From positions 310,001 through 374,000 of the forward strand of contig NZ_JAAORD010000002.1 of NCBI RefSeq assembly GCF_017696205.1: DNA of 64,000 nt, read 5' to 3'. Made by a program: the position numbers and the translations under genes. The notes below the pieces were generated by a model. That model did not search any database, was not told where the DNA came from, and saw nothing but the letters and a program-made list of their open reading frames with translations. Below are positions 3,149 through 21,195 of the stretch, in pieces (position 1 is the stretch's first letter; every line of letters starts with the position of its first letter). The DNA is from Prochlorococcus marinus XMU1402 (GTDB lineage: Bacteria > Cyanobacteriota > Cyanobacteriia > PCC-6307 > Cyanobiaceae).

Positions 3149-3336
3149 GCGGGCTAAAGTCCAATACTCCACGAGGATTTAGTCCGCCGCCTTAATTCTG
3201 AAAGTGAAAATTTTTCTAGATCAATATAAATCTATGCTTCAAGAGATAAATATCTTAATTACTTGATAAGTTTTTTTTGTATATTGCGTATACAAAATTA
3301 ATAGGTTATCTTAACTTAGTTACTAAATCCTCGTGG
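3149..3336 (+). promoter_or_regulatory. Leader with alternative pairings, copy 1
   Basis: A local stem pairs GCGGGCTAAA (3149-3158) with TTTAGTCCGC (3178-3187). Overlapping its 3' arm, CCACGAGGATTTAGT (3169-3183) is the exact reverse complement of ACTAAATCCTCGTGG (3322-3336), which covers the GTG start of the small gene at 3333. The two pairings exclude each other. The same layout recurs at 20,318-20,498, where the long-range match is 17 bases. This suggests a leader that can hide or expose the start codon, or a separate antisense-type RNA. Confidence 0.5.
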
Positions 3337-3452
3337 AAAAAGCTTTAGTTAATTTCTTTTACTGGCTACTAATAAGATCAGCCGAATCTCATTATGGAGA
3401 ATCATTTGCATCTATAGAAGTCCCATTTAATTCAATCAAAAGTTTTTCTTAA
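3333..3452 (+). CDS. 39-residue 'EK..NFFYW' peptide, copy 1
   Basis: GTG start at 3333, TAA at 3450-3452. The peptide has the core LVNFFYWLLIRSAESHYGES followed by an IEVP segment. Close relatives occur at 20,493 (also GTG) and 7799 (ATG), so the frame is under selection. It is probably a small membrane-associated peptide. No known family recognised. The start codon lies inside a sequence complementary to the leader. Confidence 0.6.
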   Translation: MEKALVNFFYWLLIRSAESHYGESFASIEVPFNSIKSFS

Positions 3453-3607
3453 TTCTTTAAAGTTTTTTTGAAGTTTTTAATATTTAAATTCATAGATTTC
3501 TTTACCTTGAATAACTTTTTGAGATAATTTAGTTAATTATCTCTATTGCAAATAAAGATAAGGTTGTTATTCTTGCACTTAAAGAAGATACTTAATTTCT
3601 TAAACTG

Positions 3608-8681: not shown

Positions 8682-8967
8682 AAAAGAAGTTAATGCTTTA
8701 TAGAAGTTTTTTTTATGAATGTCTTGTCAATCTTTATTTCAAGAAAAAGTATTTTTTAGAGGGTTTTCAAGGACAAAAATATGGATTTTAAAACAGATTT
8801 ACTAAATTGGTAATATAGACTACTTTTGTTGATTTATATAACTTATGTATTACCCACTCGTTTATAAGTTTCTCTGCCGAATTTAAGATTTAATTTATAA
8901 ATAATGACGAAAATTCATATTGAATTTGGATCAAAGAGAGTTAACCCATAGCCAATAAGTTTGTTTG

Positions 8968-9420
8968 ATGAATAACAATTTAGAAATAATCAAAAACTTT
9001 TATTCATCACTAATGATGAATAAAACTATGTTTGAAGTTAATATTAAAAAAAAGAAAAATATGATTTTTCTTAGGTATTGGCTATTCCCTGCATTAATCT
9101 CTTTCAGCTGGTTTAAATGGAGATTTCAGATCTATAAAAACGAATTTGAAATTATTGATAATGAGCTGAAAGCATGTGTTGAATGGGGTAAATCCCAAGG
9201 AATATTTTTACCTGAAAAACCAAAATATTGGATATTTTTTGTAGTAGAAAGACCTTGGAATTTAGTTTTAATTAATATTATTATCCTGCCAATATTTATT
9301 TTGAATATAGGATTAATTTTCCTTTTCTTATCTCCATGGCAAAAGAAAGTTCTAAGATATAAAAAAGCGATGAATAATCTTAAAATCAAATGGGAAAGAG
9401 AATTTTTTAAAGGATCATAA
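8968..9420 (+). CDS. Membrane protein with two helices, unknown family
   Basis: 150 residues from ATG 8968. Hydrophobic segments around 36-49 (WLFPALISFSWF) and 94-118 (LVLINIIILPIFILNIGLIFLF); the soluble loop between has EIIDNELKACVEWGKSQGIF. The minus-strand frame over the same bases is a shadow. It converges on the S26-like gene with 35 bp between stops. Confidence 0.55.
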   Translation: MNNNLEIIKNFYSSLMMNKTMFEVNIKKKKNMIFLRYWLFPALISFSWFKWRFQIYKNEFEIIDNELKACVEWGKSQGIFLPEKPKYWIFFVVERPWNLVLINIIILPIFILNIGLIFLFLSPWQKKVLRYKKAMNNLKIKWEREFFKGS

Positions 9421-9455
9421 ATTAGCTTCAAAAAAATTTAAAATAAAAATCTCCA

Positions 9456-10145
9456 TCATTTCTTATTTAGCTCTAAATTAGGATTATGAAAAAGATAAAT
9501 ACCAATTATATTATTTATTGGTATTGAAAAATTTTCTAAATAATAATTCAAATATTTTTTATTATCAGGTGCAATTAATATAAATTCGTCTTTAATAGAA
9601 TAAATACGACCTATTAATATATTTAATTTGTATCTACAAATGACTATTTCTCCAATATCTAAATCTGCATGATTTTTATTAAATAACTTATAAACTATAA
9701 TATCTTCTTTACAAATTGTAGGTTCCATAGAATCAAAACCCAAAATTATAGTTCTATGTTTTAATAGTCTATTAATTATTAATCTATAAATAGGATCGAA
9801 AAAATTCAAAGGTGATAAGTAGATATTTTTTAAAGTAAAAAACAATAGCCATCTAAAATCTTTGTAATCGGCTGTCTTTTTTTGCCAATAAGGCCAGTTT
9901 TTAAATAACTTATTAAGAGGATAATAAATTAAATAACTTAAAAATAACGCAGGAGGAGTAATTGAAATAAGCATAGTAGAAACAAAAGATGGAAGAAATA
10001 AAAAACCCAACAAGAATAAGAAAGAGTTACTATCAAACAAATAAAAAATTATTTCTTTTACGAAAAGAAACGAAATTATTACTAAAAGGTATAAACCTAT
10101 ATATTTAACATTTTTATTAATCTTTTTAAACAATTTAAAGATCAT
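9456..10145 (-). CDS. Membrane protein with S26 signal-peptidase-like domain
   Basis: 229 residues, last gene of the four-gene chaperone operon. Two hydrophobic regions at about 13-36 and 42-75, then a C-terminal domain (about 132-225) that follows the S26 layout: GFDSMEPTI with the presumed nucleophile Ser139, CKEDIIVYK, GEIVICRYK, LIGRIYSI, and IAPDNKKYLN before a closing NNIIGI. In signal peptidase I the general-base Lys sits where Arg180 is here, so activity may be lost or changed. It could process or bind the partners of the chaperone genes upstream; that is inferred from the operon. Confidence 0.6.
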   Translation of the reverse strand: MIFKLFKKINKNVKYIGLYLLVIISFLFVKEIIFYLFDSNSFLFLLGFLFLPSFVSTMLISITPPALFLSYLIYYPLNKLFKNWPYWQKKTADYKDFRWLLFFTLKNIYLSPLNFFDPIYRLIINRLLKHRTIILGFDSMEPTICKEDIIVYKLFNKNHADLDIGEIVICRYKLNILIGRIYSIKDEFILIAPDNKKYLNYYLENFSIPINNIIGIYLFHNPNLELNKK

Positions 10146-10160
10146 AGAACTTAAATTACA

Positions 10161-12164
10161 TTATTCTTTATTACAGTTTTTTTGATAAATTTTTTCTATA
10201 TTTTTGTTTTCTGGTGATAATTTCAAAGCAATATCAAAATCTTGACAAGCATCACTTATTTTGTTGAGATTTTTTTTCGAGAATCCTCTATAAAAGTAAG
10301 TAATTGATTTATCTATATTTTTATCTGCATATTTAATTGCTAAGTCATAATAAAAAATAGATTGTTGATACTTTTTATTATAAAAATATGTATCGCCAAG
10401 CAATTGATATGCATACCAATTTCTAATACCTGAATTTGTATACTTTAATAAATCCTTTTCAGCAGAATCATAATCTTCTAATTTCAAATAATTTCTCCCC
10501 CTACCCAAGTATGCTTTAGAAAAGGATCTATCTAATTTAATTGCATTAGTATATGCTTCTGTTGATAATTGATAATTTTTTTGTAGAAACAAATTATCTC
10601 CAAGTTTCAGATATGCATCTCTTTTTTCAAAATTTTCGAATTTCCCAGATATTATTTTTCTAAAATAAGAAATAGATTCATCATAATTATCCAAATAGTA
10701 TAGAGCTAATCCCAGATTGAAAATAGCTTTAAAATAATTGGGATCTAGAGTTAAAGCTTTTTCATAATGTGCTATAGCAGATTTATAATTTTTAGCCTTA
10801 TACTGTTTATTACCTCTAAAAAGAAAGTCTGATTTATTATCAGTTTCACGAATTTTTGAATTTCTAATTACTATCGGATTAAAGTTATCGTATTGTTTAC
10901 CATAAAAATATATTGTTAAGAATACAATACTAATACCTAAAAATAATTTTATAAGATAAGTTTTTTCTGATTTTAAAAAAGATTTAAATTCATTAAAAAT
11001 TGTATATATATTTTTTCTATCCTTTTTATTTTTATTATTCTTTCTTACTTCAGAAAAGTTTTTATATTTTTTTTTCAAAGATTTTGATTGCGTTTTTGAT
11101 TTAGATTTTGATTCAGTTTTCTCCTTGATTTTTTTATTTTTAAATTTAGTTTTTTTGACTTTTATTTTTGCTCCGGCTATGGTTAATGCATTTATATCTT
11201 GGCTAATCAAATCTTTTATTTCTGAAACTTCAATAAATAATCTTTTTAAATCTATTGATATTTCAAGAGATAAATCGATATCCAGATCAGAAATATTTCC
11301 AACAAGTGTTCTAAGAACAACTGCTAAATTCCTACTTTGTGAATGAACAAGCCCTCTTTGTTCAAAATTTATTTGGATCGGTTTTACATATCTTACCCAT
11401 TCATCTATGGATTTAATTAACTTATCTGTCATTAAACTAAGTGAAAGGCTTCCTTTATAAAATTTGGGCGAAATATACTTTTCTATAGCGTCAATTTGCA
11501 TTGATATTTTAACTTCCCCTTCATCAATAATTTGTTTCGCATTTAATTCATATCTATCTACTAATTCTGGAAGTAAGTTATATTCATATTTGCTATCAGA
11601 GTATAAGTCGTAAATTATATTTGAAAAAAAATTAGAATATTCAGAAATAGTTAATTTATCAAAGAATTTATTTATTGTTGATATATAAAATCTCCTCAAA
11701 TTATTAAGCTCTTCATTTAAGTCTTTAGCTTCATTAACAAGTTTTATATTGCTTATTTTTCTATCCTGATTAATTGCTTCAAGTACTTTTTTACTATCAA
11801 TAAAATCAAAAAAAATAATCAGGTTTTTTATTAAAAATAAACCATCTTCATGTAAATCTGAATTTAAAATTGAATAAGCAAAAAAATTAGCCGCAGATAA
11901 ATTAGTTAAATCAAAATCAATTTTTTTTATATTTATATTTTTAATAGATTCTAAAATCCTATTTAGATTTTTATTATCTTCACCTAAAAACCAAGAACAT
12001 TCTGCAAAAATTCTTCTCTTAGGACTACTTAACACAAGTCTAGCTGAGTTAATTTTTGATGAATCATTATTTAGAAGAGCTTCTTCAGAAAGTTTTAATA
12101 ACTTTCTTTTGTCGTCAGTAGTTTTTGCTTTTAATAAATAAAAAGGATTGTCATTTAAATCCAT
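10161..12164 (-). CDS. J-like N-domain, membrane helix and TPR protein (Hsp70 partner)
   Basis: 667 residues. The N-terminus (NPFYLLKAKTTDDKRKLLKL... AECSWFLG, residues 6-61) resembles the small helical domain seen in partner proteins of bacterial Hsp70 operons; it recalls a J-domain but has no HPD motif. A long helical region follows, then a Lys/Ser-rich linker (334-385), one membrane helix (about 403-421) and roughly six tetratricopeptide repeats from 447 to the end (for example SAIAHYEKALTLDPNYFKA). The protein would anchor a soluble Hsp70 to the membrane while the TPRs bind other proteins. It lies 8 bp after the Hsp70 gene and 15 bp before the S26-like gene. Confidence 0.7.
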   Translation of the reverse strand: MDLNDNPFYLLKAKTTDDKRKLLKLSEEALLNNDSSKINSARLVLSSPKRRIFAECSWFLGEDNKNLNRILESIKNINIKKIDFDLTNLSAANFFAYSILNSDLHEDGLFLIKNLIIFFDFIDSKKVLEAINQDRKISNIKLVNEAKDLNEELNNLRRFYISTINKFFDKLTISEYSNFFSNIIYDLYSDSKYEYNLLPELVDRYELNAKQIIDEGEVKISMQIDAIEKYISPKFYKGSLSLSLMTDKLIKSIDEWVRYVKPIQINFEQRGLVHSQSRNLAVVLRTLVGNISDLDIDLSLEISIDLKRLFIEVSEIKDLISQDINALTIAGAKIKVKKTKFKNKKIKEKTESKSKSKTQSKSLKKKYKNFSEVRKNNKNKKDRKNIYTIFNEFKSFLKSEKTYLIKLFLGISIVFLTIYFYGKQYDNFNPIVIRNSKIRETDNKSDFLFRGNKQYKAKNYKSAIAHYEKALTLDPNYFKAIFNLGLALYYLDNYDESISYFRKIISGKFENFEKRDAYLKLGDNLFLQKNYQLSTEAYTNAIKLDRSFSKAYLGRGRNYLKLEDYDSAEKDLLKYTNSGIRNWYAYQLLGDTYFYNKKYQQSIFYYDLAIKYADKNIDKSITYFYRGFSKKNLNKISDACQDFDIALKLSPENKNIEKIYQKNCNKE

Positions 12165-12172
12165 TTTTAGTT

Positions 12173-14659
12173 TTAACCCCTCAAAATATTTGCATCATCC
12201 AACCTATTCTCGTCATCATCATATATAACTAACTCCCAGAGAGAATTAAGAATTTTTCTTAAATTCATTGTATTTTCTTTAAATATCATTTCATTTCCCT
12301 CAGCTATTAGTTTTCTATAATTCTCTTTATCTAAAAAGAGATGAGGTGAATTTTCAAATTCCTTAAATTTTCTAATAATAAATTCATCTTGACGCCAAAG
12401 AATTTTAAAATTTATTTGATGAATTTGATTTAAAGATAACTCAAAATTATTATTATCTAATTCGATAGTTTTACTTGCTGAATTATAAAGAGTTTCAACT
12501 TTATTAGATTCAGATGTAGTTGAATATTCTTTAGAATAATTATTAAAGGTATTCATAGCTTTTTTTAAATCTAATTTACGAATATCTCTTAGATATTCTT
12601 GCCTCACTTCAGCAAGTAATTTTTTGCTCTCTTGAACATTTTCTAAAGATTTTTGAACATCCTCGGGATCATTTACATTGACTTTATTTTTACTTATATA
12701 ATCAACTTTCTGTTTAGCTTTCTGGATTTTTTCATCTGTTATTACAGTTTCAAGTTGCTCTAAGCGCACCATAAGATTTTCTACTTGATCTTGAGCTAAG
12801 TCATACATTGTTTCGGAGGTGTACTTACCATCTTGAATAGAATAAAAATTTTTATTATTAAATATTTCGCCAATTGAAGGTATTTTTAATCCAATTACTA
12901 TATTCCCAGAGTCTAAGATTTCAAATTCACATTCTAAATCTGAACCTACAGGGATAAATCCTTCATAAAAATCATTTCCAGTTATTTCTAAATTACCAAT
13001 ATATCTATTGTCATATATTGGTGATTTTATTTCTCCTTCCCAAAGCTTTATTTTTATAAATCCAGTTTTACCTGCCTGAAGAGATTGGCTGGTTTTGAAA
13101 ATCTTTTTTACTTTTTTTGGGAGAAGATCACCTTCTTTGACAATAAAATCAAGAGTAGAGTTTCCGCCTAATCTATCAAGAACTTCGACACCAATTGAGT
13201 GAGATGCTGGTATTCCATCAATAGATGCTGCTGTTTTAGTAATTGAAATCTCATTATTCTTTATTTTTATTTCAGTTCCATTCTCATCGAAAACTGAAGC
13301 CAAAAATCTATTTATACCACTTTTATAAAGTTGCAACTCCAATGAAGTGCCATCTTCAACTTTTATTCTTCCCGATGACCATCCAGTATCTTTACTTTTA
13401 ATTTCCAATTCAATATTTTTAGGGGCATCTTTCTCCAGAGAAATTCTAAGCCTTGATTGTTTAGATGGAGTTCTAGCAAGGTAGTTAAATTTTAAGCTCA
13501 ATTCGCCAATATCATTAATCTCTGCAGAACTTCGTTTTCGTTCTCTATTTATAGAATCCCAATCAATAGATTCGGCAAATATTGATGCCCCTTCTGATAC
13601 TGCAGTCATAGGATTTAATTCTGTACTTCCTTCAATATTTAGGGATGATGTAATTCTGTCCCTAAGAGGTTTATAGCTTGTCGGTCCCCCAATAAATACA
13701 ATCTTTTGTATATCCTCCTCTTCTAAACCAACTTTTTTTAATGTTTGTCTAATTGAATCAATTGCTTGCTCCAAATATTCCTCAATAATTGAATTAAAAA
13801 TTTTTCTATCAATTGGGATATCAAGATATAAAGGCTCTCCATCAAGATCATTTAATCTTATTTCATTTTCTGAAAGTGTAATTAAAGAATTATGTTTTGA
13901 AGAAAGTTCAATTTTTGCTTTTTCAGCAGCCCAATTACATAACTTAATCAAAGTCGCATAATCCTTCATATTAGAAAAATTTTTGGGTAGCACAAAGTTC
14001 TCCTCTAGCCATGGTTTTATAACTTCTTTAACTAATAATCTATCGAAATCTCTCCCTCCACACATCGCAATACCTCCATGTGAAAGGAGCGATACAGATC
14101 CATCTATACTCTCAGCAATGGCAATATCTAAAGTACCTCCGCCAAGATCAAATATCAAAAAAATGCCATCTGAGTTATCTGACCTCATCACACTCATTAC
14201 AGCTGCAATAGGTTCTTGCATGAGAGCAACTTTTCCTATGCCTGCCATGGAAGCAGCCTTTAATGTAGCTGTTTTTTGTACTTGATTAAAAGCTGCTGGG
14301 ACTGTTATTACAGAAAATGTATCATCTGAATTTCTCATTTCTTCTGGTAGATAACCATATAAAACACTTAAGATTTCTGAAGAACATTCTTCTGGAGTTT
14401 TGCTCAATTCCAATGCTGGAAATTCTATTTTTGTGCTTGTCCCCATAAAACGCTTAAAAAGTTTTGCAGTATTTTCGGAGTTAAAAGGTTCATTATCATA
14501 AGCTCTTTGTCCATAATATTTTGTTCTTTTATTCATAAAAATTACTGAAGGAGTTATATCGTTTTGCTCTGGACTTTTCCAAATCTTTACTTTATCTCCA
14601 TCAAAAGAAGAGATAGAACTATTAGTGGTTCCTAAATCAATTCCAATAAAATTTTTCAT
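12173..14659 (-). CDS. Divergent Hsp70 (DnaK-like) chaperone, 828 residues
   Basis: The nucleotide-binding domain is intact: GIDLGTTNS (6-14), FDLGGGTLDIA (170-180) and VFIGGPTSYKPLRDR (321-335). It is followed by an extra beta-rich segment of about 100 residues (380-490) not found in DnaK, then a substrate-binding-like beta domain with GDLLPKKV and a PVGSDLECEFEILDSGNIVI stretch, and a long helical C-terminus. At 828 residues it is far longer than DnaK (about 640). It is a specialised Hsp70, encoded with its own GrpE-like factor 2 bp upstream and a J-like/TPR partner downstream. The client is unknown. Confidence 0.85.
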   Translation of the reverse strand: MKNFIGIDLGTTNSSISSFDGDKVKIWKSPEQNDITPSVIFMNKRTKYYGQRAYDNEPFNSENTAKLFKRFMGTSTKIEFPALELSKTPEECSSEILSVLYGYLPEEMRNSDDTFSVITVPAAFNQVQKTATLKAASMAGIGKVALMQEPIAAVMSVMRSDNSDGIFLIFDLGGGTLDIAIAESIDGSVSLLSHGGIAMCGGRDFDRLLVKEVIKPWLEENFVLPKNFSNMKDYATLIKLCNWAAEKAKIELSSKHNSLITLSENEIRLNDLDGEPLYLDIPIDRKIFNSIIEEYLEQAIDSIRQTLKKVGLEEEDIQKIVFIGGPTSYKPLRDRITSSLNIEGSTELNPMTAVSEGASIFAESIDWDSINRERKRSSAEINDIGELSLKFNYLARTPSKQSRLRISLEKDAPKNIELEIKSKDTGWSSGRIKVEDGTSLELQLYKSGINRFLASVFDENGTEIKIKNNEISITKTAASIDGIPASHSIGVEVLDRLGGNSTLDFIVKEGDLLPKKVKKIFKTSQSLQAGKTGFIKIKLWEGEIKSPIYDNRYIGNLEITGNDFYEGFIPVGSDLECEFEILDSGNIVIGLKIPSIGEIFNNKNFYSIQDGKYTSETMYDLAQDQVENLMVRLEQLETVITDEKIQKAKQKVDYISKNKVNVNDPEDVQKSLENVQESKKLLAEVRQEYLRDIRKLDLKKAMNTFNNYSKEYSTTSESNKVETLYNSASKTIELDNNNFELSLNQIHQINFKILWRQDEFIIRKFKEFENSPHLFLDKENYRKLIAEGNEMIFKENTMNLRKILNSLWELVIYDDDENRLDDANILRG

Positions 14660-14661
14660 AA

Positions 14662-15048
14662 TTAATTAAGTCCAATCAAAACTGTACCAGATCTTTCAAG
14701 CAAATCACCACACATAACAACTGGCTCTAACATTTTTGTAATTACAAGCTCTTCAGTACCTTTAAACTCCTCAATATTAATTGCTTTAACAGGCATCCCA
14801 ATATCAAATTTACTATCTTCTAAGTTAACAAGTTTAATATTTAAAGTTTCTAGAATATTTTCTAATTTATCGTTAAACCATAAGACCTTCCTATTAAATT
14901 TTTCTTGATCAGTTATGTCTCTATCTTCTATTAATTCTTCAGTAAATTTTGACAATCGCCAAGATTCAATAGCTAGATCAATTATTTGGTTCTTCAATTT
15001 TAAAATTTTTTTATAATAATAAACGATAAGTTTATCTTTGGATTCCAA
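14662..15048 (-). CDS. GrpE-like nucleotide exchange factor, minimal
   Basis: 128 residues, first gene of the operon. The N-terminal part is a long helix (IVYYYKKILKLKNQIIDLAIESW), and the C-terminus forms a small beta domain ending ITKMLEPVVMCGDLLERSGTVLIGLN, which follows the GrpE pattern of 'v..vl.pGy...drvlRpa.V.V'. It is shorter than standard GrpE (about 180-200). Position 2 bp before the Hsp70 gene supports a role in ADP/ATP exchange on that Hsp70. Family assignment is by pattern, so it is moderately sure. Confidence 0.6.
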   Translation of the reverse strand: MESKDKLIVYYYKKILKLKNQIIDLAIESWRLSKFTEELIEDRDITDQEKFNRKVLWFNDKLENILETLNIKLVNLEDSKFDIGMPVKAINIEEFKGTEELVITKMLEPVVMCGDLLERSGTVLIGLN

Positions 15049-15078
15049 ATTAAAAGAAATAAATATTTATGCAATTAA

Positions 15079-15084
15079 ATTATA
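15079..15084 (-). promoter_or_regulatory. -10 box of the chaperone operon
   Basis: A perfect TATAAT on the minus strand about 30 bp before the GrpE-like start. No good -35 is visible at 17 bp (AATATT); a TTGAAA lies only 13 bp away. The promoter sits immediately beside the EVE joint starting near 15,113. Confidence 0.4.
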
Positions 15085-15112
15085 GGATTACTAAAAATTT
15101 CAATATTAGAAA

Positions 15113-15292
15113 TTTTATGGATAATAAATTCATATTGAAGAATGTTATTCTTACTTCATTCAAACTTTTAAATTTAACCGAGATCCCATGCCACAAAAGG
15201 AACCTAGCTACTGGCTAATGAACCATGTGCCAGTAGTCATAGCAATGGATCTCAAAAATCAGATAAATTCCGTCCACACCTCGTCCACACTT
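15113..15292 (+). repeat. EVE joint 1
   Basis: Begins with ATGGATAATAAATTCATATT, shared with the other joints. It then has a tandem 11-bp motif A1 (15,145-15,167: ATTCTTACTTC + ATTCAAACTT), the constant block CCGAGATCCCATGCC with the first codons of the EVE gene, TAGTCATAGCAA, and a second tandem motif B1 (15,271-15,292: CGTCCACACCT + CGTCCACACTT). It matches the start region of the intact EVE gene at 28,001. Confidence 0.75.
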
Positions 15293-15325
15293 TTCGCGAT
15301 TGACAGTCGATCTAACATAGAGTGA
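15188..15325 (+). pseudogene. EVE gene 5' fragment
   Basis: ATG at 15,188 encodes MPQKEPSYWLMN, matching MPQQEPSYWLMK of the intact EVE protein, then runs into unrelated codons and stops at 15,323-15,325. Only the promoter-proximal end of the gene is present, so this is a duplicated scar and not a working gene. Confidence 0.75.
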
Positions 15326-15343
15326 TAAAAACCATCTTTTTAA
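15300..15343 (+). promoter_or_regulatory. TTGACA-GTCGATCT hairpin/T-run module, copy 2
   Basis: TTGACAGTCGATCTAACATA starts 8 bp after motif B1 and leads to a degenerate hairpin (AGAGTG.../CCATCT) and a T-run that ends beside the ATG at 15,344. TTGACA could be a -35 box with a weak -10 (GATAAA) 17-18 bp on. Confidence 0.45.
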
Positions 15344-15697
15344 ATGGTGAAGTTTTTAAATAAATATTGGAAAAATATATTAGGTATTCTTTGGTGGATT
15401 TTTTATTTAAACAGTGGACGGTATCTTCTTACTGGGGAAGGATGGGGTAAAGATGGTGAATCTTCTATTCGTGGTGTTTTTTTAATTCTCTATCCACTAA
15501 CCTTATTTCATTTAAATAGTATTTTAAAAACAGGAGAGTTCTTTTACTTAAATAAAGAACAAGAGGCTTCATTAACTTCTGCTCAAAGAACATTTGTCTC
15601 TTTAACAACACTTGCTTCAGGTCTAGCATTTATATTTTTAAATATGGCTCACGGATTTGTTTTTTTAGGTTGGGTTTATATGCAACTAAATAAATGA
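15344..15697 (+). CDS. Three-helix membrane protein, unknown family
   Basis: 117 residues with hydrophobic segments at about 11-23 (ILGILWWIFYLNSG), 44-60 (GVFLILYPLTLFHLNSI) and 88-112 (LASGLAFIFLNMAHGFVFLGWV). A loop GEGWGKDGESSIRG separates the first two. Not recognised. It is the first gene of the segment after EVE joint 1, and its stop overlaps the MKRLLL remnant. Confidence 0.55.
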   Translation: MVKFLNKYWKNILGILWWIFYLNSGRYLLTGEGWGKDGESSIRGVFLILYPLTLFHLNSILKTGEFFYLNKEQEASLTSAQRTFVSLTTLASGLAFIFLNMAHGFVFLGWVYMQLNK

Positions 15698-15756
15698 AAC
15701 GCTTGCTACTTGCACCTCTTTCTTATTGGCAGATGTCTATTAAGTATAAAAAATAG
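15694..15756 (+). pseudogene. Signal-peptide remnant (MKRLLLAPLS...)
   Basis: A 20-codon frame in an ATGA overlap with the preceding gene. Its start MKRLLLAPL is almost the same as the signal peptide of the secreted protein at 26,430 (MKRLLLTLL), but it stops after KYKK. It looks like the leftover 5' end of a secreted-protein gene. Confidence 0.4.
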
Positions 15757-15927
15757 CTCCTAAATATAGAACTCTTCTTCCAACCTTTTTCCATAAATGA
15801 TTGCGAATACTAGATTTATACACCTCGATTTTTTGCCAATTTTCTTGCTTTTTCCTTATTTTTTCGTAAGTATGAGTATATTGGCTCTAATTTGCTCTAA
15901 AAAACTGTCACATGGGGGTTAACGATT

Positions 15928-16197
15928 ATGGAAATTCCAGAAGAAATGTTGAAAGAAATTAGAGAAAGTGGATACGATCAAGAGCTTGTATATAACTACA
16001 TAAGAGAACTATTAAACAGCGATAAACAAATTAATGAAAATAACAATCTAGAGCTTATAGACAATTACTTATTAGACAAAGATCTACAAGAACCTGCTGC
16101 TGAGATACAGATGGCAGCAGAGCTCATAGACAATTACTTATTAGATAAAAGATTTATGAGAGAGCTTGAAGATGATAAAGAATATGATGCTGCTTAA
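15928..16197 (+). CDS. Acidic helical protein with internal duplication
   Basis: 89 residues, strongly acidic, no membrane segment. The motif ELIDNYLLDK occurs twice (about residues 42-51 and 65-74), and the underlying DNA is nearly identical, so the duplication is recent. A GGGGG stretch lies about nine bases before the ATG. Function unknown; it may be a small helical adaptor. Confidence 0.6.
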   Translation: MEIPEEMLKEIRESGYDQELVYNYIRELLNSDKQINENNNLELIDNYLLDKDLQEPAAEIQMAAELIDNYLLDKRFMRELEDDKEYDAA

Positions 16198-16267
16198 TTA
16201 GATAAAGTACCTATTTTTTCCTATTTATTTAAAGGTTATTCTTTTGAGAAATAACAGGATTAAAACA

Positions 16268-16390
16268 ATGATGAAACTTGCAATCATTTTTTTACCAATT
16301 TTATTTGCAGTTATTTGGGCTGCTTTTATAGGGTTAAGAATAAATAAAGTAGAAACTAGAGATGGAAAAAGAAAATTAATTAATTACTAA
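16268..16390 (+). CDS. 40-residue membrane peptide
   Basis: Starts at one of two adjacent ATGs (16,268 or 16,271). A hydrophobic N-terminal helix (LAIIFLPILFAVIWAAFIGL) is followed by a charged tail (VETRDGKRKLINY). Its stop is 4 bp before the TTGACA of module copy 3. Confidence 0.55.
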   Translation: MMKLAIIFLPILFAVIWAAFIGLRINKVETRDGKRKLINY

Positions 16391-16394
16391 TTGA

Positions 16395-16436
16395 TTGACA
16401 GTCGATCTAACATAGAGGGATAAAACCCTCTTTTTT
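16395..16436 (+). promoter_or_regulatory. TTGACA-GTCGATCT hairpin/T-run module, copy 3
   Basis: The best copy. TTGACA (16,395-16,400), GTCGATCTAACATA, a perfect GAGGG (16,415-16,419)/CCCTC (16,426-16,430) hairpin and six T, immediately followed by the ATG at 16,437. It could end transcription of the upstream gene and also supply a -35 box for the downstream one. Confidence 0.6.
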
Positions 16437-16697
16437 ATGAATACCTTAATAGTTTCTACTTTTGATTGTTCTTTTGAAAATTTCGATAAATTTGTAGCCG
16501 ATTTCCATGAAAAGGAGGGACATAAATATGTCGAAGAATATGAACTCATCAAGGTAAATGACCATAAAAGTCACTTGATACTTAAAGTCAAAGATTTAGA
16601 AGGATTTGCTGCTGCTACAAGTACTCCAGAGATGAAAGAGTGGGATAAAGAAAATGGTTATAAAGACATTTGTTATTCACTAACTCCAGTTGAATAA
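16437..16697 (+). CDS. 86-residue conserved-type protein (small alpha/beta fold)
   Basis: Starts MNTLIVSTFDCSFENFDKFV and alternates strand and helix segments: HKYVEEYELIKVND, SHLILKVKDLEGFAAATST, PEMKEWDKENG. The order resembles ferredoxin-like dimeric alpha/beta-barrel proteins and possibly the DUF3764 family, though I am not certain. No RBS can exist between the T-run and the ATG, so translation would be leaderless or nearly so. Confidence 0.6.
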   Translation: MNTLIVSTFDCSFENFDKFVADFHEKEGHKYVEEYELIKVNDHKSHLILKVKDLEGFAAATSTPEMKEWDKENGYKDICYSLTPVE

Positions 16698-16811
16698 ATT
16701 GAAACGCTTACCAAGATATGATGTGGTCTGATGAATAAAGATTTAATAAATCATTATTAAATCAATCTTAAGGATTCATGCATAATATTTGAGACCGATT
16801 ACTTTATTTAT

Positions 16812-17117
16812 ACGACAGTTCTGGTGATCGACTCGACCAAGGTTGACCAACTAGATCTTCACTAACCAATGGTCTGCAACACCAAGGTAAATTAACTTTT
16901 CTAACCTTTACGGAAAGTAAGTTAAGTGATCAGAAATTAAACTTTCGGGATTAATTCTGAACTATCTTAAAAATTAAGTCGTTTGTAAAGCATGAAGAAG
17001 TGAGTAATCACTTTTACTTCCAAAACTAATTTCTAAGAAAATTCTTAATCTGATTATTAAATAGATCTCCTTTCTGTCGTCACCATTAAAAAAAGACCTG
17101 TAACAGGGTTTTTTTTT
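16812..17117 (+). ncRNA. Candidate structured RNA with intrinsic terminator
   Basis: No coding frame. The ends can pair: ACGACAG (16,812-16,818) with CTGTCGT (17,074-17,080). Inside are TCAGAAATTAA (16,930-16,940)/TTAATTCTGA (16,951-16,960), AAGTGA (16,998-17,003)/TCACTT (17,008-17,013), and further TTAACTT/AAGTTAA pairings. A terminator follows at 17,097. A hairpin GATTTAATA/TATTAAATC (16,740-16,763) lies just upstream. It is not any standard RNA that I recognise (RNase P, SRP, 6S, tmRNA). Confidence 0.45.
17097..17117 (+). terminator. Intrinsic terminator, probably bidirectional
   Basis: CCTG/CAGG stem with a three-base loop, followed by nine T; an A-run precedes it on the other side, so it can serve both the RNA candidate (+) and the minus-strand gene ending at 17,169. 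Confidence 0.65.
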
Positions 17118-17168
17118 ATGTCTTAAATTTTATTGATTTACTGTTAATCCATAAATAACTAAATATTT

Positions 17169-17300
17169 TTATCTCACTCTTTCACGATCAGTTAATGCTT
17201 TTTCAAAAGTAGAAAAAAAAGTAAAAATGCTATTCAATGCAACCAACAAAAGAACTACTGATCTTCCATGTTGATTTAATTGAAGTGTTCTTTGAGTCAT
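17169..17300 (-). CDS. 43-residue membrane peptide
   Basis: ATG at 17,300, TAA at 17,169-17,171. Polar start (TQRTLQLNQHGRS), one hydrophobic stretch (VVLLLVALNSIFTFF) and a charged tail. It follows the gene at 17,305 by 4 bp on the same strand and so is probably in one transcript with it. Confidence 0.5.
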   Translation of the reverse strand: MTQRTLQLNQHGRSVVLLLVALNSIFTFFSTFEKALTDRERVR

Positions 17301-17304
17301 ACTC

Positions 17305-17487
17305 TTAATAATCTTCATTGTAATCGGATGGACTACCAGTTAAAGAACAAACAACTGATTCCTCTTTTTTCATTTCTTTTATTTCCATTATTGGTCTGCC
17401 CATTTTCTTAAGAACATTTATATCTTCTTTAGTCTGACAGCGAGCAATTATGTTTCCTTTTTGATCAAAGCAACTGTAGTAAGTCAT
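17305..17487 (-). CDS. 60-residue cysteine-containing protein
   Basis: Starts MTYYSCFDQKGNIIARCQTK and ends with VVCSLTGSPSDYNEDY; three cysteines, no membrane segment. The 'YYSCFDQKGNIIA' start looks like a small beta hairpin. Family not recognised. Upstream lies the repeated leader at 17,505 on the opposite strand. Confidence 0.5.
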   Translation of the reverse strand: MTYYSCFDQKGNIIARCQTKEDINVLKKMGRPIMEIKEMKKEESVVCSLTGSPSDYNEDY

Positions 17488-17504
17488 TTTATTAAATGCA
17501 ATTT

Positions 17505-17652
17505 AAAGTTTATGGTTGATTTCAGCTGGAACAACGCAACCGACTCATGACAACCATGTTTTTAATCTAAGTCAGCAATAGATTTAAATGGCTAAAAAAA
17601 AGATACCTCTTTCCGTACCAATATGTTCATCAAACCGCACACATTAGATACG
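17505..17652 (+). repeat. Leader repeat with CCGTACC motif, copy B
   Basis: About 150 bp similar, in inverted orientation, to 21,425-21,572. Shared parts are TTTATGGTTG, CTCATGACAACCATG, TACCTCTTTCCGTACC and GTTCATCAAACCGCACACAT. ATGGTTG and CAACCAT can pair. It precedes the small gene at 17,717. A shorter version is at 5367. Confidence 0.55.
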
Positions 17653-17716
17653 CAGTATTTTGTTCAAATCAATTAGAACTTATTTAAGACTTAGAAAAAT
17701 TTACGAAGGAGAATTT

Positions 17717-17854
17717 ATGAGTGGAGATTTTGAGACTCTTGAAATTAATCAACCAAAAATTACATATCTAAAACCAGAAGATAATACAGGATGGTTAGAC
17801 AAATTAATTAATAATATTGAGGACATGAAGAACAAAATATCAAAAGATTCTTAG
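17717..17854 (+). CDS. 45-residue WLDxLIN peptide
   Basis: ATG 17,717 is preferred over the longer frame from 17,660 because GAAGGAG lies just upstream of it. Sequence starts MSGDFETLEINQPKITYL and ends TGWLDKLINNIEDMKNKIS, the same tail as the peptide at 7457-7573. Soluble, probably helical at the end. Function unknown. Confidence 0.55.
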   Translation: MSGDFETLEINQPKITYLKPEDNTGWLDKLINNIEDMKNKISKDS

Positions 17855-17990
17855 AAATTAAAGAAAAGAAACCTTTTTATTAGATCTTTAGTTTGCATGA
17901 GAATCAATTCAAAAAAGAATTTAAATTTTGTATTTAAGGTAACCGCTTTTTTCTGAGCATTATTCAGAATAAAAGTCCGACTATTTTTTT

Positions 17991-18134
17991 ATGCAAAAAA
18001 ATTTAGATGAAAATTCTTATGAAAAAAGAATTGAAAATATAGAAAAAGGAAAATCTTATTTAAAAAGCAATGGATTTTTTAAATCAAAATCAAATCTATT
18101 CGAAGACATACAAAAATTTATCTATAAAAGGTAA
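17991..18134 (+). CDS. 47-residue basic peptide
   Basis: ATG at 17,991 directly follows a T-run. Alternates Lys, Glu and Asn (SYEKRIENIEKGKSYLKSNG) with no membrane helix, and ends FEDIQKFIYKR. Function unknown. Confidence 0.45.
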   Translation: MQKNLDENSYEKRIENIEKGKSYLKSNGFFKSKSNLFEDIQKFIYKR

Positions 18135-18202
18135 TTTAAAAAAATTTTTTACTTTTGATTAATTAATTCTCTCAAAATGAAGTGGGTACTTGATGCTAAA
18201 AA

Positions 18203-18529
18203 CTAAAACCTTCCAAATCCCTTAATTCTTTTTTCTATTTTATATCCTGCTTGTACGAATTGAGTATTATCAGTCCCTACATCATAAAGAGTATAATTTT
18301 TTCCTGCCCCAATACCAATAACAGCTTTTTGAGGAACTTTCTGCTCTTTCTTACGATTTCCATTTAAATCTTCTACTTCAGAATTAACAATCCCCTCTGT
18401 TAATTCAAAGTGAAACTGTTGTTTACTTCTTGCAGTAAATAATCTGTTTACATGAAGACGTGTAAGTCTATCAAGGAGTGTCAGTGGCGGCGTATCTAGT
18501 GTTAAATTTTCGCCAACATTTTTTGAGCT
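18203..18529 (-). pseudogene. 108-codon frame without a start: 3' part of a gene
   Basis: The minus strand is open for 108 codons to TAG 18,203-18,205 and reads as a well-behaved protein: TPPLTLLDRLTRLHVNRLF, then FELTEGIVNSEVEDLNGN and KNYTLYDVGTDNTQFVQAGY. There is no ATG, GTG or TTG in frame; a stop lies directly upstream. Long open frames by chance are rare in such A+T-rich DNA, so this is probably the C-terminal half of a gene cut by a deletion or insertion near 18,530. Family not recognised. Confidence 0.6.
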
Positions 18530-18613
18530 TTATATTTATCTGAGTATTTTTACTTATATGTTGAGTTGAAGACTTTTAATAATTAATGTTTGTTTTGGGT
18601 TTATATATAAGTC

Positions 18614-18769
18614 ATGGATAAAGAACATTTAATTGATTTAATATCTAATAGCATTATTTCTGAGATTAAAGATCTCGAAATTAATGAGGAAAAATTGATT
18701 GCAAATAATTATTTAAATAATCTGAATTTAAATCAGCTTAGAATAATTTCTAAAGAATTTATTTTGTAA
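18614..18769 (+). CDS. 51-residue soluble peptide
   Basis: ATG at 18,614, TAA at 18,767-18,769. Two likely helices (EHLIDLISNSIISEIKDLEI and LNLNQLRIISKEFIL), Asn- and Ile-rich. No family recognised. Confidence 0.45.
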   Translation: MDKEHLIDLISNSIISEIKDLEINEEKLIANNYLNNLNLNQLRIISKEFIL

Positions 18770-18847
18770 TTTTTATTGAATATTTATTTAAATAAATGAG
18801 ATTTTCTTCACTATCATTTGAATTTTAATAAGTTAATACCTCTTAAT

Positions 18848-19033
18848 ATGAATGATTCAGAAGAATTTAAACCTAGCCTTAAACAAATAAATGAGGATAT
18901 CAGACCTACATGGGAAGATATCAAAAAACAATCAGAAGTTTTAGTTAACAAACTTGGTTGCCCTAGATCATTTGTAGGAGGGATGCTTCATGCAATAGCA
19001 AGCGACTTCTCTGATATGAAAACTTGGGAATAA
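18848..19033 (+). CDS. 61-residue hypothetical protein
   Basis: ATG 18,848 is chosen over a TTG ten codons earlier. Sequence SLKQINEDIRPTWEDIKKQS then LVNKLGCPRSFVGGMLHAIA suggests a small helical domain. Its stop overlaps the start of the next peptide. Confidence 0.5.
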   Translation: MNDSEEFKPSLKQINEDIRPTWEDIKKQSEVLVNKLGCPRSFVGGMLHAIASDFSDMKTWE

Positions 19034-19183
19034 ATGAAAAACTTATTACTTACACCACTTTTCAAACTATTCAAAAAAAGCACTTTCCTCTTATCACTAA
19101 ATCAAAACTCGTGCCCTGTTTTAGATGCTGAAGACATAAAAAAGCAAGAACAGGAAGAAGCTATTGAAAGGTTGTACCCGTAA
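19034..19183 (+). CDS. 49-residue peptide, overlapping start
   Basis: ATG at 19,034 overlaps the previous TAA. The start MKNLLLTPLFKLFKK resembles the MKRLLL secreted-protein starts, followed by SLNQNSCPVLDAEDIKKQEQ. It could be a degraded secreted protein or a small membrane-associated peptide. Confidence 0.4.
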   Translation: MKNLLLTPLFKLFKKSTFLLSLNQNSCPVLDAEDIKKQEQEEAIERLYP

Positions 19184-19209
19184 ACTTTTAACAGAAATGT
19201 ATCAGATCA

Positions 19210-19454
19210 CATATACGATGCAGCACGGTCATATGCACCCCCCATGCCACCCATTACTTTCCTAAATTGTGACTTTGATGGATAATGAATTTATAACCAA
19301 AAAAGTTTGGATAACACGTCCTCCAAGCCTTAAAAATCGCCGAGATACCTTGATATGACTGAAGAAAAGTTTTGGCTAATGAAAAGTGAGCGCGTCTAGC
19401 TATTACTGGGATTTCAGGGAATCGTAATTTTTTACTCAAACTTTACTCAAACTT
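19210..19454 (+). repeat. EVE joint 2 (degenerate)
   Basis: Contains ATGCCACCCATTACTTTCCT and GATGGATAATGAATTTATA, as in joint 4. Motif A2 (19,309-19,331, with ACACGTCCTCCAAGCC), CGCCGAGATACC, a fragment ending TTTTGGCTAATGAAAAG and motif B2 (19,433-19,454: TACTCAAACTT twice) follow. This is the most diverged of the four joints. A minus-strand frame across it (19,254-19,439) is a shadow. Confidence 0.7.
19355..19399 (+). pseudogene. EVE gene 5' fragment, decayed
   Basis: A 14-codon remnant (MTEEKFWLMKSERV then TAG) corresponding to the PSYWLMKSEPD region of the intact EVE protein. Confidence 0.5.
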
Positions 19455-19806
19455 TTAAAGACTAAAAAACTAACCGATATTGAGTTCGGTTCGAAGTAAG
19501 AAAACCCTGAAACTATTAATCTCTTTTGATGAATAGTCTTCAAATGACAAAGACACAAAGCACAAAAACTACATTAAGTAGCAAGCTAAGTGTCTTGGAA
19601 GTAATCTGCATTAATTAAAAAGGTTTTTGTACTCGTGTGTAGGAGTGCGGGGTTAACCTTGAAACCGCTAGGCTCAAGTCCTTACGAAAAGGACAAGTCC
19701 TTAGACCACTTATACCGATAAAATATATTCATAACAAGTTTAGGTAACTTGATTCACTAGCCAAAAACTAATGAAAAGGAAGGTAAATTATTTAATAAAT
19801 TTCTGC
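19455..19806. other. Gene-free stretch after joint 2
   Basis: No convincing gene; a 24-codon frame (MTKTQSTKTTLSS...) is present near 19,550. Between 19,645 and 19,705 lie small hairpins (GCGG...CCGC; GTCCTT/AAGGAC). They resemble parts of a tRNA at first sight but do not make a cloverleaf. Confidence 0.35.
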
Positions 19807-20133
19807 TTATAATTCTGGCTTCTCTTCTTCAACTGGCTTCTCTTCTTCAACTGGCTTCTCTTCTTCATCTGGCTTCTCTTCTTCAACTGGCTTCTCTTCT
19901 TCAACTGGCTTCTCTTCTTCAACTGGCTTCTCTTCTTCATCTGGCTTCTCTTCTTCAACTGGCATCTCTTCTTCAACTGGCTTCTCTTCTTCAACTGGCA
20001 TCTCTTCTTCAACTGGCATCTCTTCTTCAACTGGCTTCTCTTCTTCTTCAGAAAATCTTCTTTTTAAAAATTCAGAAATTTTTTGGAAAAGATCCTTTAG
20101 GAATTCAAAAATTTTATACAGAATGTTTTTCAT
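19807..20133 (-). CDS. Acidic hexapeptide-repeat protein
   Basis: 108 residues. An amphipathic, aromatic N-terminus (MKNILYKIFEFLKDLFQKI) could lie on a membrane. It is followed by 13 tandem units of EEE(K/M)P(V/D) covering the C-terminal three quarters. The other minus-strand frame over the repeat (19,788-20,030) encodes a Lys/Arg repeat and is a shadow. The repeat is likely extended and flexible, as a spacer or cation-binding tail. Function unknown. Confidence 0.6.
   Translation of the reverse strand: MKNILYKIFEFLKDLFQKISEFLKRRFSEEEEKPVEEEMPVEEEMPVEEEKPVEEEMPVEEEKPDEEEKPVEEEKPVEEEKPVEEEKPDEEEKPVEEEKPVEEEKPEL
19812..20045 (-). repeat. 18-bp minisatellite, 13 units
   Basis: Thirteen units of 18 bp differing at only two codons (Lys/Met and Val/Asp). 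The unit length keeps the frame, so copy number can change by slippage or recombination without breaking the protein. Confidence 0.85.
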
Positions 20134-20317
20134 AAATAAAATTCCCTATTAGTTTTACGAGATAAAACTTAAACAAAATTAAACACATATTTCTTTTCAA
20201 AGCATTCCGAAAAAATACTTAATTCTTTTTTTAGAAAAAAATATTTTTGAAATTATCTTGGATGTCACATCTAAGAGCTGAATTGCAGTTCAATTTTTCA
20301 TTTGCTAAAAAGATAGA

Positions 20318-20498
20318 GCGGGCTAAAGTCCAATGCTCCACGAGGATTTAGTCCGCTGCCGAAAGGTGAATCTATCCTAATTAAAGTAACTTTCTGCTAG
20401 TTTTGATAAGTATATTGATTACTTGATAAATATTTTTTGTATATTGCTATTACAAAACTAATAAGGTTATCTAGATTAGTTACTAAATCCTCGTGGAG
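20318..20498 (+). promoter_or_regulatory. Leader with alternative pairings, copy 2
   Basis: The local stem is GCGGGCTAAA (20,318-20,327) with TTTAGTCCGC (20,347-20,356). The long-range pairing is CTCCACGAGGATTTAGT (20,336-20,352), exact complement of 20,482-20,498 around the GTG start at 20,493. Sequence between the two arms has diverged from copy 1, while the pairing bases are kept. Confidence 0.5.
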
Positions 20499-20612
20499 AA
20501 AGCTTTAGTTAACTTCTTTTACTGGTTACTAATAAAATCAGCTATATCACATTATGGTGAGTCATTGGTTCCAGTAGAAGTTCCATCTAATTCAACCAAA
20601 CCTTTTTCTTAA
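20493..20612 (+). CDS. 39-residue 'EK..NFFYW' peptide, copy 2
   Basis: GTG start, TAA at 20,610-20,612; same length as copy 1 at 3333. LVNFFYWLLIKSAISHYGES then VPVEVPSN. Differences from copy 1 are mostly conservative, which indicates selection on the peptide. Confidence 0.6.
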   Translation: MEKALVNFFYWLLIKSAISHYGESLVPVEVPSNSTKPFS

Positions 20613-20667
20613 TTTCTAATGGCAGGTATTAAATACTTTAATCAAAAGCTTAGTTAAACTACCTTTT

Positions 20668-20805
20668 TTATTTTAAAACTAGAATTAATACTCCAAAAAT
20701 TAAAGTAGAGGCAACAAATCCAACACCAACTAATCCAGCAATTATTCCAGTATTAAGATAGACCTTTACTGTTGCTAATTCCTTCCCTTCTCCAATAGTC
20801 CTCAT
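20668..20805 (-). CDS. 45-residue membrane peptide overlapping another frame
   Basis: ATG at 20,805, TAA at 20,668-20,670. A polar start (RTIGEGKELATVKVY) leads into one long membrane helix (IIAGLVGVGFVASTLIFGVL). It overlaps the 3' third of the CP12-like frame at 20,753-20,884 in another frame on the same strand, so at least one of the two may be a recent invention or be damaged. Confidence 0.45.
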   Translation of the reverse strand: MRTIGEGKELATVKVYLNTGIIAGLVGVGFVASTLIFGVLILVLK

Positions 20806-20884
20806 ATTTTAAATTTCTTTTTTGATAATCTAATGCGTTCATGTTCTTATCGAGTATGGCAAAAGGAGAATTAGTAAATTTCAT
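20753..20884 (-). CDS. CP12-tail-like family member without its cysteine tail
   Basis: 43 residues. LKYEDYWRREG aligns with FEDYWKRECRE of the cysteine peptide at 21,196, but after this the sequence turns to ISNSKGLS and stops, losing the Cys-x8-Cys tail. AGAGG is about ten bases upstream of the ATG. It is probably a frameshifted or truncated relative. Confidence 0.4.
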   Translation of the reverse strand: MKFTNSPFAILDKNMNALDYQKRNLKYEDYWRREGISNSKGLS

Positions 20885-20942
20885 GGCATAACACCTCTAA
20901 AAAAAATAGTTTATTGAATATTTAATAGATATGAGATTTTAT

Positions 20943-21044
20943 TTATCTCAAGTAACTAGATCCTCTATAAGTAAGCTTTATTGTTTTCTCTTCTTGGCTC
21001 TTGCAATATACGAAAGATTTGCCGTTAAAATACATGTTTACCAT
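20943..21044 (-). CDS. LTYRG-motif mini-protein, copy 2
   Basis: 33 residues, same length and layout as 2427-2528: NGKSFVYCKSQEEKTIK and a final LTYRGSSYLR. AGGAG sits seven bases before the ATG. A plus-strand frame over the same DNA is a shadow. Confidence 0.65.
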   Translation of the reverse strand: MVNMYFNGKSFVYCKSQEEKTIKLTYRGSSYLR

Positions 21045-21145
21045 TATGCAGCTCCTGGTCTTGATCAAGTCCCCGTCCTATGGCTTGATTCGTACTGCGG
21101 TCTATCTAATAGTAGATCGGACGATTTGGTAGCATTTACTACACT
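21045..21145 (-). ncRNA. Conserved structured 5' leader, copy 2
   Basis: Closely matches 2529-2627. The central stem is ATCAAG (21,064-21,069) with CTTGAT (21,084-21,089), where copy 1 has CTCAAG with CTTGAG: both partners changed together. The loop GGACG and upstream CGTCC are kept. Confidence 0.5.
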
Positions 21146-21148
21146 TTA

Positions 21149-21177
21149 TTTATAGAGTATTTATACTCATTTGTCAA
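21149..21177 (-). promoter_or_regulatory. Near-consensus sigma-70 promoter, copy 2
   Basis: Minus-strand TTGACA (21,177-21,172), a 17-bp spacer and TATAAA (21,154-21,149), identical in form to copy 1. Confidence 0.7.
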
Positions 21178-21195
21178 CCCTTAAGATTAAAATTC

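Follow-up and report, generated by a model that had tools for sequence, protein, structure and literature searches.

The window analysed here, a stretch of 64,000 nt of Prochlorococcus marinus XMU1402 (contig NZ_JAAORD010000002.1, positions 310,001 to 374,000), carries on its minus strand an operon for what is very probably an accessory, mobile Hsp70-GrpE machine. Its four open reading frames (ORFs) lie at 9456-15048 and are separated by 2, 8 and 15 bp, in keeping with the gaps of 2-15 bp given by an earlier annotation made from the letters alone (hereafter the sequence-only reading). They encode a GrpE-like nucleotide exchange factor (14662-15048, minus strand like all that follow; 128 aa from TTG 15048), an 828-aa Hsp70 family ATPase with the C-terminus ANILRG (12173-14659), a 667-aa protein made of an N-terminal helical domain, one membrane helix and C-terminal TPR repeats (10161-12164), and a 229-aa membrane protein with an S24/S26-type peptidase-like domain (9456-10145). 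The conserved unit consists of three of these genes, not four: the GrpE-like, Hsp70 and helical-domain genes. Our best overall explanation, an accessory, horizontally transferred Hsp70 machine that is tied to the membrane and used in defence, is an evenly balanced call when taken as a whole; the defence role, judged by itself, comes out slightly on the favourable side.

Relatives were collected by a pattern scan over 84,980 species (one genome per species), which gave 91 Hsp70 relatives, 80 of them kept. A scan of viral contigs (IMG/VR) gave three, found with an alignment-based search, while a single-sequence scan with the window Hsp70 found none; tblastn with the Hsp70 C-terminal half gave 13 plasmid records. 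In that half, the Shewanella, Aeromonas, Vibrio and Polaromonas plasmid records were 37-41% identical and nine rhizobial ones 20-21%. By blastp against the plasmid loci, the GrpE-like protein was 25-42% identical, the whole Hsp70 48-49% (closer group) or about 30% (rhizobial), and the 667-aa protein 21-31% over its first 330 residues. Contigs from metagenome-assembled genomes may carry contamination, and the Hsp70 of one relative, on an Aeromonas caviae plasmid (L011), is annotated as two pieces and apparently broken. Over 90 loci (the window and L010-L098), profile matches numbered 85 for the GrpE-like protein, 78 for the helical domain, 80 for an AAA ATPase and 74 for a membrane partner, many of the losses being at contig ends. 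Among the 60 complete loci, i.e. those with a full Hsp70 and enough flanking DNA, the GrpE-like protein and the helical domain of about 330 residues were each found in 60, the AAA ATPase in at least 53 (a lower bound, owing to a narrow position rule) and the membrane partner in 53. These 60 include near-copies as well as plasmid and IMG/VR loci, and a helical domain or membrane partner was accepted whether it lay before or after Hsp70. The commonest order (41/60) was GrpE-like, Hsp70, AAA, membrane partner, helical domain. No AAA match was obtained in ten loci: three related Prochlorococcus, two rhizobial, two Synergistaceae and three lying on short contigs or broken. The S26-like gene was matched in 3/90 loci, the window and two close Prochlorococcus copies, with a profile built from one sequence, and was absent from the fourth, diverged Prochlorococcus copy. 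The four-gene set, which the sequence-only reading had suggested searching for as a conserved cluster, was thus reduced to its three-gene core.

The Hsp70 gave a Pfam HSP70 match of E 9e-55 over residues 5-389. Nine ATPase-site positions, matched to a DnaK of the same genome and covering the phosphate, Lys70, Glu171 and adenosine sites, were identical in 83/83 members; the rows had been preselected for the first phosphate motif, so that two of the nine positions were partly enforced. Judged by these residues, the ATPase site is intact, within a nucleotide-binding domain formed by residues 1-365 (13565-14659; Pfam and NCBIfam matches). The protein does not reach the NCBIfam equivalog level of DnaK (204 bits against cut-offs of 648 and 822.55), the score being far below the curated values for DnaK and HscA. 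The hydrophobic DnaK linker was not seen in the Hsp70 rows compared with a same-genome DnaK; in its place, between the nucleotide-binding domain and a part weakly resembling a substrate-binding domain, sits an extra segment of residues ~380-505 (~385-500 as a mapped feature, 13160-13507), placed by exclusion. The sequence-only reading had called this segment beta: its existence and position hold, and it may be beta-rich. Residues ~506-593 (12881-13144) are a probable substrate-binding beta domain, as suggested by a weak match of positions 127-291 of our Hsp70 profile (A3) to the mitochondrial Hsp70 chain 31gn_A (hmmsearch against the PDB, E 0.008). The tail N(I/L)(I/V/L/M/T) was kept in 81/84 full-length copies. 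The host genome (G000; 1.70 Mb, two contigs) has two housekeeping-type DnaK genes elsewhere (C1:848675 and C2:620810) and five J-domain matches, which bears out the claim of a machine separate from the housekeeping one.

For the GrpE-like protein the case is structural. No Pfam or NCBIfam match was obtained at E 0.1, and no GrpE chain was found among the PDB matches of its profile (A4, the window sequence plus 67 of 83 loci; this alignment and A5, see below, omit L010-L015, near-copies and a few more) at E 10. The AlphaFold2 model, however, has a pLDDT (predicted local distance difference test) of 94.7, and its eight best Foldseek PDB matches were all GrpE (E 0.001-0.073; TM-scores modest, 0.35-0.53 by query length). 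VIA-align placed it against six GrpE entries with Z 9.1-9.8 and root-mean-square deviations of 4.2-5.7 over 113-127 aligned residues; the next unrelated entry had Z 7.1 over 51 residues, and Thermus GrpE Z 5.8. The model has the long paired helices and the C-terminal beta wing of GrpE. The modelled protein has the GrpE fold, and the minimal GrpE-like factor of the sequence-only reading is thus recovered at the level of fold, not of sequence family. Its start is more likely TTG 14997 (111 aa) than TTG 15048, because the ORFs of the Prochlorococcus copies L019 and L020 open 17 codons further in.

The third core protein raises the question of a J-protein. Its conserved N-terminal domain (residues 1-335, 11160-12164; delimited from AlphaFold2 and homologues) was modelled as all helical with a pLDDT of 92.4. 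It is followed by one hydrophobic helix at residues 404-422 (10899-10955; hydropathy scan) and a TPR region at residues ~450-661 (10182-10817; Pfam TPR_2, E 2.4e-26, four stretches), the single helix and the TPRs having been correctly anticipated. The helices within residues 1-60 (7-11, 19-29, 35-46 and 48-56) come in an order that suits a J-domain, and an A(R/K)..L..P..R-like stretch, as in J-domains, occurs in 58/66 members. The HPD motif was found in 0/66 (first 70 residues), and DnaJ was absent from the best 25 of the 79 Pfam families matched by the 66 members. Segments of the family alignment (A5, the window sequence plus 65 of 74 loci) were compared by hhalign with J-domains from relatives, in a first set of 22 less two noise sequences, identical ones being merged, and a second set of 27: residues 1-62 reached probabilities of 0.23% and 2.06%. 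In the latter, no more than 15 columns around A...L..P..R were aligned, and segment 31-92, which overlaps, came out at nearly the same value; with the first set, residues 130-205, elsewhere in the domain, scored highest (0.63%). No J structure appeared in the Foldseek and VIA-align listings for the helical model, which held mainly helical repeats and designed bundles, residues 1-60 being barely tested by them. Because HPD is lacking in all 66 members and none of Pfam, hhalign, Foldseek and VIA-align gave a significant J match, we do not call it a J-protein, and J identity is unproven. Of the J-like N-domain without HPD proposed earlier, the missing HPD and the helix order stand, while the J homology is uncertain.

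The 229-aa protein has two hydrophobic helices (16-34 and 42-60, hydropathy scan) and reaches Peptidase_S24 (PF00717) just at the curated cut-off (23.3 bits, E 5.3e-05; 38.7 bits for the L020 copy). In the alignment of its three copies the catalytic Ser is kept in all, and the general-base position, assigned by comparison with LexA and LepB, is Gly in all. It is probably not an active peptidase, judging by these residues, and the protease-like partner of the sequence-only reading becomes doubtful.

The larger versions found elsewhere bring further components. In the L010 operon the AAA protein gave an AAA domain match of E 3.7e-31, and its best PADLOC hit was IetA (E 2.9e-26, over the AAA part), followed by TRIP13. 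AAA copies of at least 400 aa and not at a contig end have an (I/V/L/F)GF tail within their last 25 residues in 71 cases out of 75. A membrane helix was predicted by hydropathy in 80/89 membrane partners, and peptidoglycan-binding domains were found in three of the four tested (L010, L012 and L015). Near their N-terminus, 76/88 membrane partners carry a GF(A/S)GL tag, against 2/1090 other ORFs and 1/330 control ORFs; the pattern was written after the sequences had been inspected, and the membrane-partner profile includes the tag region. In Synechococcus L096, a tagged protein follows the helical-domain gene, its tag preceding what look by eye like ankyrin repeats. Seven loci (L010, L022, L023, L028, L037, L040 and L097) have, partly or wholly, an extended operon in which the helical-domain gene is followed by genes of ~214, 165, 349 and 217 aa; the GF tag is also borne by the 349-aa product, and two others start like signal peptides (by eye). 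EGF-like domains were matched as well as the peptidoglycan-binding ones. An assembly gap was considered for the missing AAA gene of the window and rejected: the host genome is 99.95% complete in its two contigs, and its AAA matches are distant (24-33% identical).

These envelope features could also belong to a dedicated assembly or export chaperone, in which Hsp70 would hold a single membrane or secreted client in a competent state for insertion into the envelope by the membrane partner. The peptidoglycan-binding and EGF-like domains and the signal-peptide-like starts of two extra genes are what such a chaperone would predict, and one Prochlorococcus copy lies beside glycosyltransferase-type genes; yet the extra secreted genes are confined to some loci, none being seen at the window copy, and such scarcity (4 of 266 Prochlorococcus genomes) is more in keeping with conflict genes than with a role in building the envelope. 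We regard this alternative as improbable.

That sparse distribution was established with the Hsp70 C-terminal half, which matched in only four Prochlorococcus genomes (G000, G025, G090 and G583, the last with 43% identity); other relatives in Prochlorococcus are 96-97% identical in this half. An even draw of the phylum gave 2/386 genomes at E 1e-6, namely the window's own and one short weak match. The operon (26.5% G+C against 30.7% for the window) sits in a flexible island at 8906-27827: the island is absent from genome G004, where window positions 8905 and 27828 are separated by about 510 bp (blastn). A block common to other Prochlorococcus genomes extends over 9430-15081 (blastn; no strand applies to the block or the island). 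Its part 9430-15021 is about 89% identical in G025 with other flanks, and 10329-15081 is present in G090 at the same site as in the window, so that the four carriers occupy at least two sites. The block is thus no chance grouping, its three-gene core being found again in other phyla. In G583 the copy comprises the GrpE-like gene, Hsp70 and a helical-domain protein of 518 aa with a C-terminal pair of hydrophobic helices; the profiles of the AAA protein, the membrane partner and the S26-like protein matched nothing there.

Signs of transfer are also found outside the cyanobacteria. In an Hsp70 tree of 82 rows, 58 of them from Pseudomonadota (quick method; only Hsp70s of at least 780 aa that have the start motif), near-identical proteins occur in different families, e.g. 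in Methylotetracoccus (L027) and Lysobacter (L097), and the Prochlorococcus copies form a long branch in a mixed group. Two plasmid copies (Shewanella and Aeromonas) adjoin TnsD and TnsE of a Tn7-like element, with homologous neighbours in Aeromonas simiae. Among complete E. coli genomes, a DNA-level match was present in 2/5426, one with only part of the set; this was a search of DNA against DNA, by which more distant copies would be missed. From the tree and these carriers, the three-gene core appears to move between bacterial families and probably phyla. One 52.8-kb IMG/VR contig (L018) may be a bacterial island or prophage, since the gene order round its cassette is that of Serratia grimesii (L076). 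In phage records, 48 tblastn matches were obtained, none covering 80% of Hsp70 (43-50% in the 20 listed, all inside residues 1-413), and no blastn match to the Serratia Hsp70 DNA.

Such carriers suggest another possibility, that the machine aids the replication or transfer of the element that bears it. It is found on plasmids, Tn7-like elements and three IMG/VR contigs, and host DnaK, DnaJ and GrpE are reported to help some plasmids and phages (PMC12169576). The carriers differ, however, many copies are on chromosomal contigs, and an anchor in the membrane or cell wall would not be expected of a helper, which makes this explanation very improbable.

The neighbours of the non-cyanobacterial copies point instead to defence. 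A Polaromonas plasmid copy is about 4 kb from zorA; a Sinorhizobium copy has as neighbours genes for a TaqI-like specificity protein, an ATP-dependent endonuclease and a UvrD-like helicase. In E. coli HeN100 the copy shares a tRNA-Phe island with a dptF fragment and the RADAR gene rdrB, and near it, on the other strand, are a YfjP-family GTPase fragment and a GTPase-family gene; in E. coli NH-21 a dptF fragment is found about 4 kb downstream. For a systematic comparison, 24 of the 80 genome loci were studied at whole-genome scale, the choice falling on long contigs, and 20 of these were compared by PADLOC (E 1e-20) with 20 random 20-kb stretches of the same genomes, at 216 ORFs each (those of the control drawn at random from 330; gene calls by a simple longest-ORF rule). 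The neighbour ORFs matched 17 and 36 models in two runs, with 22 names among those listed (the best 25 of the 36 in the second run), against 1 and 7 models and 7 names for the control; the counts are of model or protein names, several of which may match one protein. The neighbour names in the listed part were TmtA, HmaB, HmaC, ZacA, ZacB, ZacC, HEC-09, HEC-06, DUF499, RTasPolA, MTase_II, PDC-M68A, LmuB, PDC-S37, Hhe, SoFic, WYL, C3a139, AbiEii, Orf5, DrmD and BrxH, which we grouped into about 19 systems, some generic. The control names were C3a214 (GlgB), AbiEi, PDC-M37B, mad3, DolB, SspA and DndA, among which GlgB, SspA and DndA look like housekeeping relatives. ZacC was present in 2/24 genomes, its distance to the cassette being about 4 kb in one and 16 kb in the other. 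Hhe was found in 7/24 (eight genes): four are at most about 30 kb from the cassette (G480, G486, G495 and G502), a fifth (G492) about 19 kb away if the chromosome is circular, and three on other contigs; it also occurred in 2/14 named control genomes. Two TmtA genes are within 5 kb of the cassette in G494, and one is about 43 kb away in G487. These three families were chosen because they had been found near the loci, and their counts describe rather than test. The co-occurrence with defence genes that the sequence-only reading had proposed to check is therefore found for relatives outside the cyanobacteria; of the accessory role that it had suggested (surface protein handling, stress or phage defence), the defence context is seen in those relatives, and beside the window copy Pfam revealed none apart from the EVE-domain gene at the island edge.

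The same comparison weighs on the idea of a mobile quality-control machine for surviving heat or envelope stress, in the manner of the islands known as the transmissible locus of stress tolerance (tLST). Those islands are marked by the ClpK, sHsp20, HdeD, KefB and DegP-type gene families, which differ from those of the operon. Mobile protein-quality-control islands of this kind do exist (PMC8407380, PMC8290217), and the parts of our machine are chaperone parts with membrane and cell-wall domains, mobile and widely but sparsely spread. Its neighbourhoods are defence-rich: in 20 genomes the neighbours matched defence models far more often than the same-genome controls did. Further, no ClpK, HdeD, KefB or DegP family match was obtained among the proteins of the window operon or the L010 operon, tLST genes not having been searched for in the flanks. 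Stress survival is, in our view, an unlikely alternative.

We favour a defence role because the non-cyanobacterial copies sit among anti-phage genes and the set moves between families and probably phyla. Several points weigh against it. The role is inferred from sequence; no killing or nuclease domain is present in the core, and J identity failed the profile test. Of the six plasmid loci read, two name clear or likely defence genes; those of Shewanella, Aeromonas, Vibrio and Aminobacter name none recognised, the Vibrio stretch holding a toxin-antitoxin pair. Some PADLOC names are generic (WYL, methylase, helicases), and the controls were random genome regions, not non-defence island cargo, so that a mobile island gene is not separated from a defence gene. 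Tyrosine integrase homologues were not clearly enriched (3/20 versus 1/20, single-sequence phmmer). The apparently secreted proteins of the extended operon also fit envelope biogenesis, and the G025 copy adjoins tRNA-Ala and glycosyltransferase-type genes. In the window, Pfam named no defence gene in the flanks except the EVE-domain gene at the island edge, PADLOC not having been run there; PADLOC 2.0.0 gave no match for the four window proteins, and for L010 none for the GrpE-like, Hsp70 and helical-domain proteins, the AAA protein alone matching.

If the machine does serve defence, a private GrpE-type exchange factor would drive an ATP-powered Hsp70 cycle, with the helical-domain protein in place of a J-protein, the window version of which also carries a membrane helix and TPRs. 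The GF(A/S)GL and IGF tags would be docking peptides recruiting the soluble machine to the inner membrane. There, an envelope-anchored partner would mark or sense phage or plasmid proteins during entry or assembly, Hsp70 would bind the marked proteins in cycles and, in the larger versions, the AAA ring would pull them apart. The Prochlorococcus version may have lost the AAA protein or never had it, its anchor and adaptor being merged in one protein. We tentatively put this forward as a new immune type, in which Hsp70, a helical adaptor and, in most versions, an AAA unfoldase would be brought by GF/IGF docking peptides to an envelope-anchored sensor, the whole disarming phage proteins at the inner membrane, marine picocyanobacteria having a stripped version; the exact clients, phage or plasmid proteins at the membrane, are the more doubtful part.

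Known systems offer partial parallels. With DnaK-GrpE-DnaJ the machine shares the Hsp70 ATPase site, a GrpE-fold factor and a third partner gene; it differs by the extra segment, the DnaK-type linker not seen, the lack of HPD, its accessory and mobile nature, and the linked AAA and tagged membrane proteins. Zorya (ZorAB) is similar by function only, with an inner-membrane protein tied to the cell wall and cytosolic ATPases; one copy of our set is near zorA, and no protein family is known to be shared. IetAS, besides the IetA-like AAA match, has a subtilisin-type partner, whereas the L010 operon proteins gave no peptidase family match. The GAP1-N2 systems are predicted conflict loci centred on a GTPase, to which HSP70, GrpE and a DnaJ-FNIII or TPR protein belong (PMC7159879); here, AAA ATPases and GF-tagged membrane proteins are present, the sampled copies are mainly from Pseudomonadota, and no GTPase family match was obtained in the window or L010 operon proteins (Pfam). 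Hsp70-like units also occur in a defence setting as CnuD of CoCoNuT Type III-A, where they are linked to proteins of the McrB/McrC type and their Walker A-like motifs are degenerate (PMC11090510); ours is stand-alone and keeps the nine ATPase positions in 83/83. In the literature searches, which covered part of some hit lists and left subscription papers mostly outside their scope, no title or abstract opening described this gene set.

A few other features of the loci were recorded. A repeat of ~130 bp, 80-86% identical, is found in the window at 15098-15222, 22208-22344 and 27911-28038, with a partial copy at 19256-19307; the third copy enters the start of the EVE-domain gene (28001-28462), and the first codons of this gene recur in the two remaining full copies. 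The island looks as if its cassettes were joined at the 5' end of that gene. The stretches ~2430-3480 and 20283-21184 are 77-86% alike and were seen as double matches of relatives. Outside the island, at 29740-31308 in a stretch common with G004, lies a divergent Hsp70/MreB-like gene of 522 aa, matched by Pfam HSP70 at residues 229-443 only. Promoter-like sites were below, and terminator-like sites within, the range of shuffled sequences. Immediately upstream of the cassette in Prochlorococcus AG-347-I04 (L020:7350-8456), a 368-aa gene product joins sigma-70 region 4 to a DnaB-type helicase domain. ARAGORN found tRNA genes in 5/35 loci (L193, L019, L099, L046 and L064). Two of them are tRNA-Ala (ggc) genes beside two diverged Prochlorococcus copies (L193:12679-12754 and L019:12405-12478); because only these lie within ~350 bp of the cassette, tRNA adjacency is not a general rule.

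Chaperones are usually known as phage needs or as supports for immune proteins. An example of the latter is bNACHT25, which is reported to depend on host DnaJ (PMC12169576). The conserved tails and tags make direct, testable docking predictions, and the enterobacterial copies allow tests in laboratory strains. If the proposal is true, the chaperone itself would be the weapon or the sensor, a mobile operon bringing its own Hsp70 and exchange factor into defence islands.

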